DNA of 64,000 nt from Flammeovirgaceae bacterium BBD 1991-12 (GTDB lineage: Bacteria; Bacteroidota; Bacteroidia; Cytophagales; Cyclobacteriaceae): positions 1-64,000 of the forward strand of contig LYSV01000005.1 in assembly GCA_001657315.1 (NCBI GenBank), written 5' to 3'. The stretch's first letter is position 1, and each line of letters opens with the position of its first letter. This document shows positions 40,780 through 46,343 of the stretch, piece after piece. The notes beneath the pieces were generated by a model. That model ran no database searches, was not told the origin of the DNA, and saw only the letters and a list, made by a program, of their open reading frames with translations. The position numbers and the translations under genes are program-made.

Positions 40780-42057
40780 TTAACTCATCAGGTATTCTTT
40801 GAGATCTTCGAAATCATTACTCATGGGAATACTTACTTTCTGTTTCTCAAGGTAAGCTTTCAAACGCTCCGGGATCTCAATTTCACCGATCACTTCTGTG
40901 ACGGTGTCAATGAACTTGGCGGGATGGGCGGTCTCAAGAAAGACTCCGGTGGCCCGTGCTCTTTTAAGATGATCTTTGAGCCCAAGATAACCTACTGCTC
41001 CATGTGGGTCCAGCACATAACCATAAGTTTTATATACTTCTGCCATGGCTGCTCTGGTCTGTTCATCGGTAAAACTATACCCGGCTATATCTTCCGTTAT
41101 TTTCTTCCACGATTGTCCGTAAAGCTCGTACATTCTCCCGAAATTACTGGGATTACCCACGTCCATGGCGTTGGAAATGGTCTGCCGGGAAGGTTTGGGA
41201 TGAAAATCGCCTGAAGCCAGATATTTTGGTACAATATCGTTGATGTTTGAGGAGGCTACAAAGCCCCTGATATTCAACCCCATGGCCTTGGCCAGCAATC
41301 CGGCAGTGAGGTTGCCGTAGTTGCCGCTGGGCACAGAAAATATCACGCTTTCATGGTCTGCCAACCGGGCCATGGCCCAGAAGTAGTAAAACGACTGTGG
41401 GATCAGTCGGGCAATGTTGATGGAATTGGCCGAAGTGAGCTTCATGGCTTTGTTCAGTCCCTGATCCAAAAATGCCGCCTTGACCATACGCTGGCAATCA
41501 TCAAAGGTACCATCAATCTCCAGCGCTGTTATGTTCTGTCCAAGGGTGGTAAGCTGCTGCTCCTGCAGGTGACTTACCATGCCTTTGGGATACAGAATGA
41601 TCACATCTACATTAGGCACCCCCAAAAAGCCATTGGCTACAGCACTGCCGGTATCTCCCGAGGTAGCTACCAGCACTGTTACCTTTTCGTCTGAGAAGTG
41701 GCTAAGGCATCGGGCAAGGAACCGGGCGCCTACATCCTTGAAGGCGCAGGTAGGCCCGTGAAACAGCTCGAGGCTGTGGATGTTATCATGCACCCTCACT
41801 ACAGGTAACGGGAAATTCAGGGTTTCTTCGACAATGCTGAATAACCTGTCCTCTGGAATATCATGACCCACAAAGGGGTGCGCCACTTCATATCCAATTG
41901 CTGCTATGTCCTTTTTATCCAGATTTACCAGGAATTCCTGTGGCAATGAGGGTATGTTTTCCGGCACGTAAAGACCGTTATCCTTAGGAAGTCCCTTAAT
42001 CACGGCTTCCTGAAATGAAGCGGCCTCAACAGATCGGTTTGTGCTGTAAAATTTCAT
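40780..42057 (-). CDS. thrC: Threonine synthase
   Basis: A 425-residue PLP enzyme converting O-phosphohomoserine to threonine. I place the start at the ATG at 42057 (MKFYSTNRSVEAASFQEAVI); the open frame extends 61 codons upstream through a palindromic repeat and is not coding there. The PLP lysine is Lys107 in GPTCAFKDVGARF, and the phosphate-binding loop is VATSGDTGSAVANGF. SVPSGNYGNLTAGL follows. It is the last gene of the thrA-thrB-thrC set, separated from thrB by 231 bases that contain a palindromic repeat. Confidence 0.95.
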   Translation of the reverse strand: MKFYSTNRSVEAASFQEAVIKGLPKDNGLYVPENIPSLPQEFLVNLDKKDIAAIGYEVAHPFVGHDIPEDRLFSIVEETLNFPLPVVRVHDNIHSLELFHGPTCAFKDVGARFLARCLSHFSDEKVTVLVATSGDTGSAVANGFLGVPNVDVIILYPKGMVSHLQEQQLTTLGQNITALEIDGTFDDCQRMVKAAFLDQGLNKAMKLTSANSINIARLIPQSFYYFWAMARLADHESVIFSVPSGNYGNLTAGLLAKAMGLNIRGFVASSNINDIVPKYLASGDFHPKPSRQTISNAMDVGNPSNFGRMYELYGQSWKKITEDIAGYSFTDEQTRAAMAEVYKTYGYVLDPHGAVGYLGLKDHLKRARATGVFLETAHPAKFIDTVTEVIGEIEIPERLKAYLEKQKVSIPMSNDFEDLKEYLMS

Positions 42058-42142
42058 TCTAATTTCTGACCTTGTCTTTAGTAAAATTGGTGTAGCTCTA
42101 TGATCACAAGTATTTAATTGACACCATACCACTTCGTGATTT

Positions 42143-42242
42143 CTTTGTGGCTTCGAGCCTTTGTGGCATAAATGAACTGACTGCCTGACTACAAAGCCTG
42201 GAACCGGCCTGCCGACTGGCAAAGGCACTAAGTTGCACAAAG
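42143..42242. repeat. Palindromic repeat in the thrB-thrC gap
   Basis: CTTTGTGGCTTCGAGCCTTT (left arm, 42143-42167) pairs imperfectly with GGCAAAGGCACTAAGTTGCA (right arm, 42218-42242) over about 25 bp. It lies inside the thr operon, so it is transcribed as a hairpin between thrB and thrC. Confidence 0.65.
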
Positions 42243-42288: not shown

Positions 42289-43212
42289 TTAAATTAAAAC
42301 CTTAGCCCCTTCCTCATTGATCTTCGATACATGGACATAATGCTCAATGTCCAGGTCCTGATAGATTTGTCTAAAAATGGAACCCACTTTATTTGCACTG
42401 ACCGGATCATTGCACAAAGCAAATACCGACGGCCCGGAGCCCGAAATACTGCACCCCAGTGCCCCTTTATCTGCAGCTGCCTGTTTGAGCTGATCGAAAC
42501 CCGGGATGAGCATGGAACGCACCGGCTCCACGATCACATCCTGTAGTGACCGTCCAATAAGCCCATAATCCGAGGTGGCAAGCCCGGAGATCAGACCGGC
42601 TACGTTGCCCCACTGGGCTATGGCTGTTTCCATTGAAATGTCTTTCTTCAGTATTTTTTTTGAATCCGATGTTTTTACCTCTATCTGGGGATGTACCACT
42701 ACCACCGTCAGATCTGAAGGGTAGGAGAGGTTTACCACATCCAGTGGTTCGTAACTTCTTACCAGCGTAAATCCACCCAGCAGCGATGGGGCTACATTAT
42801 CCGCATGTGCTTTTCCTGAAGAGGCAGCTTCTCCGGCCATAGCAAATTGCACCAGCTCCTGTTTTGAAAAAGGGCTGTTCAATAGCTCATTAGCAGCAAA
42901 TACCGCCCCGGCAGCGCTCGATGCGCTGGAGCCCAGGCCGCTACCCGGCAGTACCTTCTTGTAGATGATCATCCTGATACCCTGTGAGGAACCTAACTCG
43001 TCCAGCAATGCCTGAATGGCCACTCCGGCTACGTTGGCCTTTGGGTCAGTAGGCAGATTGGAACCCGGCATACGGATCTCTATACCTCCTGCATCGGAAA
43101 GCGACATTTCAATTTCATCGCCAATTCCTTCCAGGGCAAGCCCAAGGATGTCAAAACCCGGGCCCACATTGGCTACCGTAGCCGGGGCAAATACTTTAAT
43201 AGCGCTACTCAT
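42289..43212 (-). CDS. thrB: Homoserine kinase
   Basis: A 307-residue GHMP-family kinase that phosphorylates homoserine. The start is the ATG at 43212 (MSSAIKVFAPATVANVGPGF), eight bases inside the end of thrA; an upstream ATG would overlap thrA more and lacks support. The ATP-binding GHMP motif is VLPGSGLGSSASSAAG (88-102). The C-terminal GALGCSISGSGPSVFALC is the second GHMP motif. It is coupled to thrA by overlap and precedes thrC. Confidence 0.95.
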   Translation of the reverse strand: MSSAIKVFAPATVANVGPGFDILGLALEGIGDEIEMSLSDAGGIEIRMPGSNLPTDPKANVAGVAIQALLDELGSSQGIRMIIYKKVLPGSGLGSSASSAAGAVFAANELLNSPFSKQELVQFAMAGEAASSGKAHADNVAPSLLGGFTLVRSYEPLDVVNLSYPSDLTVVVVHPQIEVKTSDSKKILKKDISMETAIAQWGNVAGLISGLATSDYGLIGRSLQDVIVEPVRSMLIPGFDQLKQAAADKGALGCSISGSGPSVFALCNDPVSANKVGSIFRQIYQDLDIEHYVHVSKINEEGAKVLI

Positions 43213-45646
43213 TGGAAATACGCATAATGTCTGCAAAAATACCCATGGCTGTTACCTCAGCCCCGGCCCCTGCACCCTTGATGACCAGTGGCTGCTCGGG
43301 GTACCTTTTGGTAGTGAAAAGTACAATGTTGTCCTTACCTTCAAGGTTGTAAAAGGGGTGATCCGGGCTCACCAGCTTTAAGCCGGTTTCAGCCTTGCCC
43401 TTATTGAAAGTGGCCACATATTTCATTTTTTTGTTTTGATCATTGGCTTCCTGCAGCATTTTTTGAAAGGTGTCCTCCTTTTTGGCGAGTTCCTCAAAGA
43501 ATTTATCTATTGTTGGTGCCTTCATGCACACCTCTGGTATGAACTGCTGGCTGTTGATGTCTTCCAGCTCCATCTCAAATCCACTTTCACGGATCAGAAT
43601 GAGGATCTTACGCATCACATCCACTCCACTCAGGTCTATCCGGGGGTCCGGCTCCGTATAGCCTTCTACCTGGGCCTGTTTTACAATGTCCACAAATTTC
43701 ACGGAAGCGTTGAAGTTATTGAATATAAAATTCAGACTTCCCGATAGTACAGCCTCAACCTTCAATACTTCATCACCACTTTTGATCAGGTCATTCAGCG
43801 TGTTTATGACTGGTAAGCCGGCGCCCACGTTGGTCTCAAAAAGGTATTTTGACCGGTAGCGGAGTGCTGTTTGCTTCAGAGAAAGATACTTTTCCATACT
43901 TTGGGTGCAAGCGATCTTATTGGGGGTCACTACTGAAATACTTCGTGTCAGTACCTCCTCATAGATGGAAGCCACCTCTTCGTTGGCCGTGTTGTCAATA
44001 AAAATGCTGTTTCTGAGGTTGAAGTCAGTCATTTTTGTGACGAACTTCTCAAGACCCATCTTCTCACCCTCAGACTGAAGCATGTCCTTCCAGCCTTTGA
44101 GCTCGATCCCCTTCTCTTCGAAGTACATCTTTTTACTGTTGGCCAGGGCCACGATCCTCACATCTACATGATGGTGCCGGGCAAGGTAGGAGCGTTGTTT
44201 GGCGAGCTGCTCAATGAGCGTACCGCCCACATTGCCTACACCAATCATAAAAATGTTCAGTACTTTTCTTTCCGAAAGGAAGAAGCTCTCATGAAGACTG
44301 TTTAATGCTTTTTTTACCTCGGTGTCACGTATCACCACGGAGATATTCTTTTCCGAAGAACCCTGAGCAATAGCCTTGATGTTCACACCGTTCTGTCCCA
44401 GGATACTGAACATACGTCCGCTTACCCCTACCTGCTCTTTCATATTGGAACCCACCAGTGCCACAATCGCCAGGTTTTCTTCGATTTTCAGGGGATCGAT
44501 CTTACGTGTGGCCAGCTCATATTCAAACTCATTTTCAATGGCTTCCTTTGATGTGGCGGTGTCACCAGCGTCGATCCCTACGCAGATAGAGTGCTCAGAA
44601 GATGCCTGCGTGATGAGAATGACGTTCACCTGAGCGGATGACAAAGCTCGGAACAATCTGTGGGAGAAATTGGGTATTCCCACCATTCCGCTACCAGAAA
44701 GATTGAAAAGCGCAATGTTTTGTACACTGGATAATCCTCGGATGAGTTTACCATTCCCCTGAACCTTGCTGGATATCACCGTTCCTTCTTCTTCCTTTTT
44801 AAAGGTGTTTTTTATATGGATTGGGATGCTGGCTTCCAAAGCCGGTTGAATAGTGGGAGGATAGATCACCTTGGCACCGAAATGTGAGAGCTCCATGGCT
44901 TCCTCGTAGGAGATATCCCTTATGGCGTAGGAGGCTCTTACCAGCCGGGGGTCCGCGGTCATCATACCGCTCACGTCCGTCCATATTTCCAGTTTTTTGC
45001 TTTTCAGGCTGGAGGCCAGGATGGCAGCGGTGTAGTCGGAGCCACCTCTGCCCAGGGTGGTGGTTTCATTCTCTTCGTTGGAGGCGATAAATCCCGGGCA
45101 TATCCCTATGCCCTTGTTTTCCTTAAAATAGGCTCTTACGGCTTTGGCTGTGGCCTTAAAGTCTACATTTGCCCGCCCGAAGTGGCTATCCGTTTTGATG
45201 AACTGCCGTGGGTCTGCTACCTGGGATATCAGCCCCTGATCGTTCAGGTAATCATTGATAATGGTGGCTGACATTGACTCTCCGTAGCTGAGGATACGAT
45301 CCCTTGTTTTCAGGCTTAGCTCACGGATCAGGAAAACTCCCCGGCATATATCTTCCAGCTCATTCAGCAGTATCTTCACCTTGCTCAGGGTTTTGCCCTG
45401 GTTTTTAACGGAGATGAGCTCCTTAGTGGTTTTAAGGTGTTTTTGTTCGATCTCTGTAAAGATCCTGGTATATCGTTCGTCGCCCTGGGAGGCCATTTCA
45501 CTGCATTCAACCAATTGGTTGGTAATGCCACCCAATGCAGAAACCACCGTGATCAGGGGTCTTTCCTTTTCCTGAATGATCTCTTTTACCAGAGAAATGT
45601 TTTTAGCAGAGGCCACAGAAGTGCCTCCAAATTTTATTACCAGCAT
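43205..45646 (-). CDS. thrA: Bifunctional aspartate kinase/homoserine dehydrogenase
   Basis: An 813-residue fusion catalysing the first and third steps of threonine synthesis. The kinase domain is about 1-290 (MLVIKFGGTSVASAKN, TLGRGGSDYTAAILASSL). Tandem ACT domains lie near 310-465 (NVILITQASSEHSICVGI, GVNIKAIAQGSSEKNISVVI) and are the likely site of threonine feedback inhibition. The homoserine dehydrogenase domain is about 470-813 (FMIGVGNVGGTLIEQL, VTPNKIACTQSM, GTL-type loop replaced by LSGSLNFIFNNF). The stop overlaps thrB by eight bases. A Thr/Ile-rich leader peptide 80 bases upstream suggests transcription attenuation. Confidence 0.96.
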   Translation of the reverse strand: MLVIKFGGTSVASAKNISLVKEIIQEKERPLITVVSALGGITNQLVECSEMASQGDERYTRIFTEIEQKHLKTTKELISVKNQGKTLSKVKILLNELEDICRGVFLIRELSLKTRDRILSYGESMSATIINDYLNDQGLISQVADPRQFIKTDSHFGRANVDFKATAKAVRAYFKENKGIGICPGFIASNEENETTTLGRGGSDYTAAILASSLKSKKLEIWTDVSGMMTADPRLVRASYAIRDISYEEAMELSHFGAKVIYPPTIQPALEASIPIHIKNTFKKEEEGTVISSKVQGNGKLIRGLSSVQNIALFNLSGSGMVGIPNFSHRLFRALSSAQVNVILITQASSEHSICVGIDAGDTATSKEAIENEFEYELATRKIDPLKIEENLAIVALVGSNMKEQVGVSGRMFSILGQNGVNIKAIAQGSSEKNISVVIRDTEVKKALNSLHESFFLSERKVLNIFMIGVGNVGGTLIEQLAKQRSYLARHHHVDVRIVALANSKKMYFEEKGIELKGWKDMLQSEGEKMGLEKFVTKMTDFNLRNSIFIDNTANEEVASIYEEVLTRSISVVTPNKIACTQSMEKYLSLKQTALRYRSKYLFETNVGAGLPVINTLNDLIKSGDEVLKVEAVLSGSLNFIFNNFNASVKFVDIVKQAQVEGYTEPDPRIDLSGVDVMRKILILIRESGFEMELEDINSQQFIPEVCMKAPTIDKFFEELAKKEDTFQKMLQEANDQNKKMKYVATFNKGKAETGLKLVSPDHPFYNLEGKDNIVLFTTKRYPEQPLVIKGAGAGAEVTAMGIFADIMRISNE

Positions 45647-45725
45647 AACCGGAATGTGATTTAGAATAGTAAGCTTAATGATGAACTGTTAAAATTGGCC
45701 TGTGCCTGATGGCGATATGTAGTGA

Positions 45726-45779
45726 TCAACCCCGCGAGGGGGTAGTGATGATGGTAATAGTAGTGCAAGCGGTGATCAT
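45726..45779 (-). CDS. Thr/Ile-rich leader peptide of the thr operon (candidate attenuator)
   Basis: Too short for ordinary gene calling: ATG at 45779 to TGA at 45726, 17 codons, reading MITACTTITIITTPSRG. Six of 17 residues are Thr and four are Ile, the same composition logic as E. coli thrL, where ribosome stalling at Thr and Ile codons prevents termination. It ends 79 bases before the thrA start on the same strand. A GC-rich hairpin (ACCCC, CTCGC loop, GGGGT) overlaps the last codons. GGCGAT just before the ATG can pair with ATCGCC between leader and thrA. I could not find a clear terminator with a T-run, so the exact mechanism is open. Confidence 0.7.
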   Translation of the reverse strand: MITACTTITIITTPSRG

Positions 45780-45849
45780 GATCGCCGGAGATGTGGTATG
45801 ATATTTTGTTGTTTGATTCACTTGCAGAATATCCTTCTCTATGAAGTGG

Positions 45850-45880
45850 CGAAGCTAAATGATAATTTTAAAATGTCAAA
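45850..45880 (-). promoter_or_regulatory. Candidate thr operon promoter
   Basis: On the minus strand TTTG (45880-45877), exactly 19 bases, then TAGCTTCG (45857-45850), one base off the Bacteroidota TAnnTTTG element. Transcription would begin near 45845, about 65 bases before the leader peptide. Confidence 0.55.
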
Positions 45881-45904
45881 GGGTAAAGAATAAATTATAG
45901 CTCA

Positions 45905-45969
45905 GAATTTAGTTAATGAATTTAGTTAATGAATTTAGTTAATGAATTTAGTTAATGAATTTAGTTAAT
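45905..45969. repeat. Five exact copies of a 13-bp unit
   Basis: GAATTTAGTTAAT is repeated five times without a mismatch. It lies just upstream of the candidate thr promoter and about 78 bases before the plus-strand gene at 46047, in the divergent region. Confidence 0.97.
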
Positions 45970-46046
45970 GAAACTTTATTTGTCCAATGAAGTTTAATTA
46001 TATTGTACATACAAAATATTTGTATATATTTTCAACAGATTCAAGA

Positions 46047-46343
46047 ATGAAAACAAAAGAATCGGTCAGAGGCAAACGTATGGGAGAAAAAAGAGGCATG
46101 AATCTCCCTTTTGGACAAAGGGAAGAAGATTTTTTTGTATCGTACAGGCCATTCAAACAGGTTGCCAGAGTTATTGTTGACAACAGATCAAACCTTATAC
46201 CAGTAGGTTTTATCGAAGTTGAAACCAGATTACCTCACAGGGAAGTAAATGAAATACTTGACTTTTTTCAAGAAAAAAACTTTATAAATATCGACGGAGA
46301 TATGGTTAAAGTTAATCCTGATTTTGCAGGAACTGTTTTTTGA
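46047..46343 (+). CDS. Small hypothetical protein
   Basis: A 98-residue protein from the ATG at 46047 (MKTKESVRGKRMGEKRGMNL); an upstream in-frame ATG at 45987 would add 20 poorly fitting residues. The C-terminal half (NLIPVGFIEVETRLPHREVN, EILDFFQEKNFINIDG) looks like a winged-helix with a helix and wing, so a regulator is possible. Its last 32 bases overlap the convergent gene at 46312-46968. The function is unknown. Confidence 0.6.
   Translation: MKTKESVRGKRMGEKRGMNLPFGQREEDFFVSYRPFKQVARVIVDNRSNLIPVGFIEVETRLPHREVNEILDFFQEKNFINIDGDMVKVNPDFAGTVF

Follow-up and report, generated by a model that had tools for sequence, protein, structure and literature searches.

Leader-peptide attenuation is a textbook device that has been studied mostly in Proteobacteria. 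In E. coli, the Thr/Ile-rich peptide encoded by thrL precedes thrABC and forms part of an attenuator with a U-run terminator, and in the E. coli his leader a hairpin stabilizes a pause of RNA polymerase. Leader translation can also decide premature termination where there is no U-run terminator, as in toiL/topAI and tnaC, two Rho-linked leader-peptide systems of E. coli; these sense antibiotics or tryptophan, and a link to Rho in the thr leader described here is hypothetical. A 2004 attenuator survey by Vitreschak and co-workers reportedly named Bacteroidetes cases. Among the matches listed in our literature searches, in which subscription journals are thinly covered, we found no paper on a thr leader in Bacteroidota. 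Strong clues to leader-peptide attenuation before amino-acid operons have been described in a flavobacterium, where elements upstream of pheA and hisG are among those without Rfam matches and where threonine is absent from the main text of the paper (PMC9723704), and short ORFs reminiscent of leader peptides have been described in Bacteroides thetaiotaomicron (PMC7366714). Leader-peptide attenuation is a known kind of regulation; for the architecture that we describe below, a hairpin (P1) followed by an AUAU element, the loci tested gave no Rfam match, and we did not find it in the literature searched.

Like the thrL leader of gammaproteobacteria (Rfam Thr_leader, RF00506), the locus studied here has a Thr/Ile-rich peptide before thrABC, and the inferred signal would be the same. 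Unlike thrL, this locus and its relatives mostly have no strict U-run terminator, carry P1 on or beside the leader stop codon with the AUAU element after it, and use a Bacteroidota promoter and a GTG or TTG start codon.

Organization of the thr locus

We analyzed a stretch of 64,000 nucleotides (the window) from Flammeovirgaceae bacterium BBD 1991-12 (contig LYSV01000005.1, positions 1 to 64,000), the genome of which is Fulvivirga-like, with several Fulvivirga species among its nearest named relatives. On the minus strand the leader is followed by thrA, thrB and thrC (Table 1), and the assignment of these genes in a preliminary description of this DNA is borne out by profile matches above cut-off for all three. 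The same description had reported a frame of 17 codons, ten of them Thr or Ile, that stops 79 bases before thrA. We found this ATG frame at 45726-45779 (-), with six Thr and four Ile codons and with its stop 79 bases upstream of the thrA ATG at 45646, as the 3′ part of a frame of 31 codons. A scan of both strands of the 64 kb for short frames (ATG, GTG or TTG starts, 8-60 codons) identified the leader, in its 31- and 17-codon forms, as the sole frame with at least eight Thr/Ile in 12 codons. Profile searches found no family match for the leader peptide. As a separate observation on the operon, thrC as called starts at a TTG, probably too early; its profile match starts at residue 137, and the likely start is an ATG well downstream.

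Table 1. Features of the thr leader region and operon in the window, in the order in which they are read
Feature	Position	Strand	Description
Promoter TTTG-19-TAGCTTCG	45850..45880	-	Bacteroidota type, assigned by sequence and position
Leader ORF	45726..45821	-	GTG start 45819-45821, 31 codons, peptide MNQTTKYHTTSPAIMITACTTITIITTPSRG
Thr/Ile codon run	45741..45764	-	TTITIITT, putative sensor
P1 hairpin	45729..45743	-	ACCCC-CUCGC-GGGGU, adjoins UGA stop
Leader stop codon	45726-45728	-	UGA
AUAU element	45711..45720	-	ACAUAUCGCC motif, near-fixed spacing 3′ of P1
Hairpin, rival of P2	45703-45712	-	GCC-AUCA-GGC, preferred by local fold
P2 weak hairpin	45697..45706	-	GGC-ACAG-GCC, then AAUUUU
thrA	43205..45646	-	bifunctional aspartate kinase/homoserine dehydrogenase I; match to NF006959 above cut-off (1044 bits)
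thrB	42289..43236	-	homoserine kinase; TIGR00191, above cut-off
thrC	40780..42240	-	threonine synthase; TIGR00260, above cut-off

Conservation of the leader frame

The Thr/Ile-rich leader frame before thrA is real. Its conservation in close relatives, on which the preliminary description had made its proposal depend, was seen in the window and in 10 of 10 congeners whose sequence ahead of thrA could be read. We then applied a uniform test (at least 6 Thr/Ile in 10 codons, with a stop no more than 12 codons later) to 216 upstream regions, comprising 11 genus loci (window included), 77 related loci, two sets of 28 and 40 from the order and 60 from the phylum. A leader was identified in 105 of the 216, a few of these being duplicates and some probably false positives; the reverse strand gave 7 of 216, and shuffled sequence 240 of 4320. 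The other 111 regions have no such leader under this test. By set, a leader is present in 11 of 11 genus loci, 53 of 77 related loci, 5 of 28 and 15 of 40 loci from the order, and 21 of 60 from the phylum.

Detailed comparison was carried out on a Fulvivirga group of 12 loci (L082-L089, L091, L092, L002 and L004), with L003, L005 and L007 dropped as the same species as L085, L084 and L087, and L090 as a near-copy of L088; the thrA start is missing in L006, L008 and L093. Other groups are denoted by family number (f1, f23, f41, etc.) and, for g25, by genus number, and our guess is that f23 is Bacteroidaceae, f41 Balneolaceae and f13 g25 Hymenobacter. Group counts refer to loci where a leader was seen, i.e., for f41, 7 of the 11 fetched, with none in L219-L222; the f41 locus L217 enters only the recount on 109 leaders given below. 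In the 12 codons before the hairpin, the fraction of Thr plus Ile over the 12 Fulvivirga-group loci is 0.67 in the leader frame, compared with 0.01 and 0.02 for the two alternative frames, a bias that is partly built in, since this place was picked by its Thr/Ile content. The same 12 loci show exchange of Thr for Ile and the reverse at single positions and draw on each of the four Thr codons, neither of which is built in by this choice. The other groups have 57-68% Thr/Ile in frame. A rough scan before 13 ilvD matches, which trusted a fixed offset, saw no leader of the same kind.

Start codon and promoter

In the Fulvivirga group the leader starts with GTG in 10 of 12 loci and TTG in 2 of 12, with ATG in none, and this start lies 75-87 nt 5′ of P1 in all 12; GTG and TTG codons may arise by chance, and the position is nevertheless kept. 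The ATG that had been proposed as the start has no ATG counterpart at the same place in relatives, and it is the GTG/TTG start whose distance from the promoter is conserved, so we rejected the 17-codon frame as the whole peptide. The promoter that had been placed about 70 bases ahead of that ATG stands: when spacers of 17-21 nt were allowed, the top-scoring TTTG / TAnnTTTG site had exactly 19 nt between its boxes in 12 of 12 loci, and the leader start followed the end of the −7 box by 24-29 nt in every one, the window included. The mean promoter score is 8.6 vs 6.9 for shuffled sequence, and the chance of such a score at a single locus ranges from 0.005 to 0.27. The distance from promoter to start fits the median 5′ UTR of 24 nt given for Flavobacterium psychrophilum (PMC9723704). 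Further upstream, at 45905-45972 and separated from the −33 box by approximately 25 bp, we also observed a perfect tandem array of 13 bp × 5.2 (GAATTTAGTTAAT), the unit of which occurs in 1 of 13 Fulvivirga-group upstream regions, the window's own.

A hairpin and an AUAU element at the leader stop codon

Two pairings had been proposed as alternative RNA structures in the preliminary description. One of these, ACCCC/GGGGT, is the conserved hairpin P1; the other, GGCGAT (inside 45777-45788) with ATCGCC (inside 45705-45722, both on the minus strand), was rejected as a switch, since GGCGAT is present in 1 of 13 Fulvivirga-group loci, that of the window. Across the 20 aligned loci of alignment A2, 97% of the pair cells of P1 are kept, with no compensatory change among these close loci, and when clades were compared by script the letters of P1 differ on both sides (ACCCC:GGGGU, ACGGG:CCCGU and CCCGG:CCGGG). 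Alignment A3, in which P1 of family f1 is misaligned, was excluded from the counts. With a minimum of 4 pairs (3 G-C) as the threshold, and in clades other than Winogradskyella, a stem over the stop codon is present in f41 (6 of 6), f5 (2 of 2), f24/f25 (4 of 4), f1 (11 of 11), Lutibacter (8 of 8), other Flavobacteriaceae (12 of 17) and f13 g25 (5 of 6), and in none of 4 f23 loci. In the Fulvivirga group it is found in 5 of 12 loci, and the stop is directly 3′ of P1 in the other seven. The rate of stop-overlapping stems in shuffles is 2-25%.

The ACAUAU motif after P1 was absent from the first account of this DNA. Counted from P1 and without L126, AUAU is present 3′ of the hairpin in 10 of 12 Fulvivirga-group loci (9 of 12 by eye, since L092 has ACATAC, as do L087 and L091), and in f41 (6 of 6), f5 (2 of 2), f24/f25 (4 of 4), Lutibacter (14 of 14), other Flavobacteriaceae (25 of 25), Winogradskyella (9 of 9) and f1 (3 of 8), with none in f23 (0 of 4) or f13 g25 (0 of 6). 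The shuffled rate is 21%, and most offsets, measured from the 5′ base of P1, fall between 20 and 27 nt. A rougher count from the leader stop, as picked by script, gives 75 of 109 leaders; only 2 of 9 Winogradskyella leaders are positive in this count because their stop lies later.

Most relatives have some hairpin 3′ of the AUAU motif. P2 itself is statistically weak (mean z −0.74 in the Fulvivirga group, −0.7 in the window), with the mean z of this stretch negative in all eight groups (−0.09 to −2.53), and a GCC-loop-GGC hairpin that excludes P2 is favored by the fold in the window, L089, L002 and L004.

Specificity of the leader RNA model

A covariance model (R1) built from the 20 loci of alignment A2 returned one match in each of 11 of the 15 genomes of the genus, all at E<1e-7 and all before thrA, with the next best match at E=0.16; ten of these 11 matches are themselves training rows. 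Of the four other genomes, three have no match to a fused thrA and one has its thrA cut by a contig end. In the phylum, 19 of 198 Bacteroidota genomes contain one match each at E≤0.01, all located 37-142 nt before a thrA match and 12 of them outside the training set. No extra copies above noise were present in genus or phylum among the candidates scored (150 per genome in the genus and 23 per genome, with stricter filters, in the phylum), numbers and filters that could let weak copies elsewhere escape. R1 also misses relatives, e.g., in the phylum search, every f1 locus beyond the genus.

Terminators of thr and his leaders

The preliminary description had noted the lack of a clear T-run, and had suggested another kind of termination or translational control, a remark that is apt. 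Our analysis agrees on the T-run: there is no strict U-run terminator between the leader and thrA in the window, and none in 9 of 12 Fulvivirga-group loci. The three loci with such a terminator (3 of 13 on recount) are the close relatives L087, L091 and L092, which have a 5-bp stem plus GAUUUUUC. A strict terminator was found in 1 of 6 f41, 0 of 6 f5/f24/f25, 1 of 8 f1, 0 of 9 Lutibacter, 0 of 11 Flavobacterium and 0 of 8 Winogradskyella loci (7 of the latter being weak, with weak stems and U-rich tails). These counts cover 8 of the 12 f1 leaders, 9 of the 14 from Lutibacter, 8 of the 9 from Winogradskyella and 11 of the roughly 25 from other flavobacteria. In the recount, L016, L022, L215, L151 and L236 also pass the strict test. 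L016, from a Winogradskyella MAG, has a short T/I/M-rich leader and, unlike the weaker examples in the other Winogradskyella leaders that we read, a strong intrinsic terminator (CCTTCC..GGAAGG + T7).

In contrast, each of the 14 his leaders of the same genus that were long enough to read has a strict U-run terminator (L202 being too short). The regions upstream of hisG (L197-L211) encode His-rich leader peptides, several with C-termini like MHGRYMF, and this leader is, as predicted from its letters, a canonical his attenuator, which shares control by a leader peptide with the thr leader and differs in its His run and its U-run terminator. Over the 109 listed thr leaders, 72 have AUAU without a terminator, 11 a terminator without AUAU, 3 both and 23 neither, with shuffled terminator rates of 0-15% by group, so AUAU and U-run tend towards mutual exclusion, in loci that are related and with f13 g25 strict in 2 of 7 only.

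Proposed mechanism

We consider ribosome-mediated attenuation of thrABC, by a leader that would sense a shortage of Thr or Ile, to be the best explanation of this locus, with a probability of approximately 0.85. Since a strict U-run is mostly absent, the most likely form is a variant without a U-run terminator, and since this applies to 9 of 12 loci, transcription attenuation in the Fulvivirga group is putative. The comparison of loci bears out the promoter geometry, the frame and its codon identity, P1, the AUAU element, the position of these features ahead of thrA and the fact that most of the group has no U-run terminator, and the sensing half of the proposed mechanism is strongly supported.

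Transcription would start just 3′ of the promoter, and a ribosome would begin at the GTG at 45821 and translate 31 codons that end in the Thr/Ile run. With ample charged Thr- and Ile-tRNA, this ribosome would reach the stop codon beside P1 and leave, and thrABC expression would be low; with either tRNA short, we infer that it would stall in the Thr/Ile run and cover the 5′ arm of P1, so that thrABC is expressed. P1 and AUAU, the near-fixed spacing of which resembles the arrangement at the hairpin-stabilized polymerase pause of the E. coli his leader, might act as a pause site for RNA polymerase that keeps polymerase and ribosome in step, which is our guess at their role. The final stop of expression would be a termination event without a U-run, and Rho as its agent is likewise a guess.

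Alternative explanations

Ordinary thrL-type attenuation, with P2 as a weak intrinsic terminator and E. coli-like switching in which only the letters have degenerated, is possible, and we rate it as doubtful. P2 and the AAUUUU after it in the window are suggestive of such a terminator, as are the 5-bp stems of the closely related L087, L091 and L092, the weak stems and U-rich tails of Winogradskyella, and the five further loci that pass the strict test. In addition, a ribosome modeled at the stop codon raises P2 over naked RNA in the means of all five non-canonical groups, an effect that upstream blocking produces trivially. However, a strict terminator is missing from 9 of 12 Fulvivirga-group and 5 of 6 f41 loci and from all 9 Lutibacter and all 11 Flavobacterium loci sampled, while the his leaders of the same genus all have one, and the fold of the window prefers the hairpin that excludes P2. 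No one switch shared by every species emerged from folding with a modeled ribosome. When the 5′ arm is covered, the extent of downstream pairing by the P1 G strand varies between species from 0.06 to 0.93, and no common downstream partner was made out by eye. The view of the preliminary description that the locus follows the same logic as thrL can be kept, by inference, for the sensing half only; the terminator half is missing in most of the group, and RF00506 has no match up to E 10 in positions 45300-46300 of the window and none in the six P1-type loci among nine loci tested.

Rho-dependent attenuation is an equally tentative reading, and would account for the missing U-run. Here the C-rich, G-poor leader would be a Rho loading site that a stalled ribosome masks, and after release of the ribosome Rho would catch a polymerase paused at P1 and AUAU. 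The leader has a mean (C-G)/78 of 0.191 over 12 loci (24 C and 8 G in the 78 nt of the window), vs −0.029 (sd 0.081) in 1307 windows from the 40 longest ORFs of the window; a rho gene is present in this genome, and there is precedent for a rut site that overlaps a translated uORF in E. coli toiL/topAI (PMC12121999). However, a surplus of C over G is inherent in Thr and Ile codons, and C-richness is also seen in his leaders (0.110) and in the thr leaders of f23, which have U-run terminators (0.147), whereas f1 leaders lack it (0.014). We therefore rejected the excess of C over G as proof of Rho, since it is unspecific. A more specific proposal, which we put forward as speculation, is that several Bacteroidota families share a class of thr attenuators free of U-runs, in which P1 and AUAU would be a hairpin-stabilized polymerase pause, the Thr/Ile run would also be the Rho loading site, and the stalled ribosome would both sense starvation and block Rho in one footprint.

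Translational control, in which stalling in the leader would alter folding so that initiation at thrA rather than transcription is regulated, is improbable. The general lack of U-run terminators and the short interval of 67-101 nt from leader stop to thrA start in 12 loci are consistent with it; against this, R1 matches end at least 37 nt upstream of thrA, no conserved pairing with the thrA start region was seen by eye, and the intrinsic terminators of f23 and L016 in the same interval point to transcription. That the frame is a functionless product of chance in low-complexity sequence can be dismissed as highly improbable, for although its start is non-ATG and its peptide has no family match, its conservation, frame bias, Thr/Ile exchange, promoter geometry and place before thrA all argue for function.

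Variation of thr leaders among Bacteroidota

Under ribosome-mediated attenuation, the sensing half of the leader would be kept across several Bacteroidota families, and the terminator half seems to alternate between two types, a hairpin with a U-run and one with AUAU. In a phylum whose promoter type is its own, this makes natural pairs, i.e., thr vs his in one genus and f23 thr vs Fulvivirga thr, with which one can ask how expression stops when there is no U-run. The f23 thr leaders (L232-L235) share the Thr/Ile run and the downstream gene with the leader in the window, and differ in having a strict U-run terminator in 4 of 4 loci, with neither the stop-codon P1 nor AUAU. RF00506 matches all 3 f23 loci tested, but weakly, with E values between 2.8e-4 and 3.7e-3 and scores that do not reach the gathering threshold, and Phe_leader also weakly matches two of these three.

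The thr leaders of f13 g25 (L119, L123, L125, L126, L129, L134 and L139), which pass the strict terminator test in 2 of 6 loci (4 weak), or 2 of 7 on recount, end in ..R-stop. By eye, they contain repeats like the 1:2, 2:3 and 3:4 pairings and a U-run after a G+C hairpin, L123 being the one locus read closely, and their terminators look canonical, with long loops.
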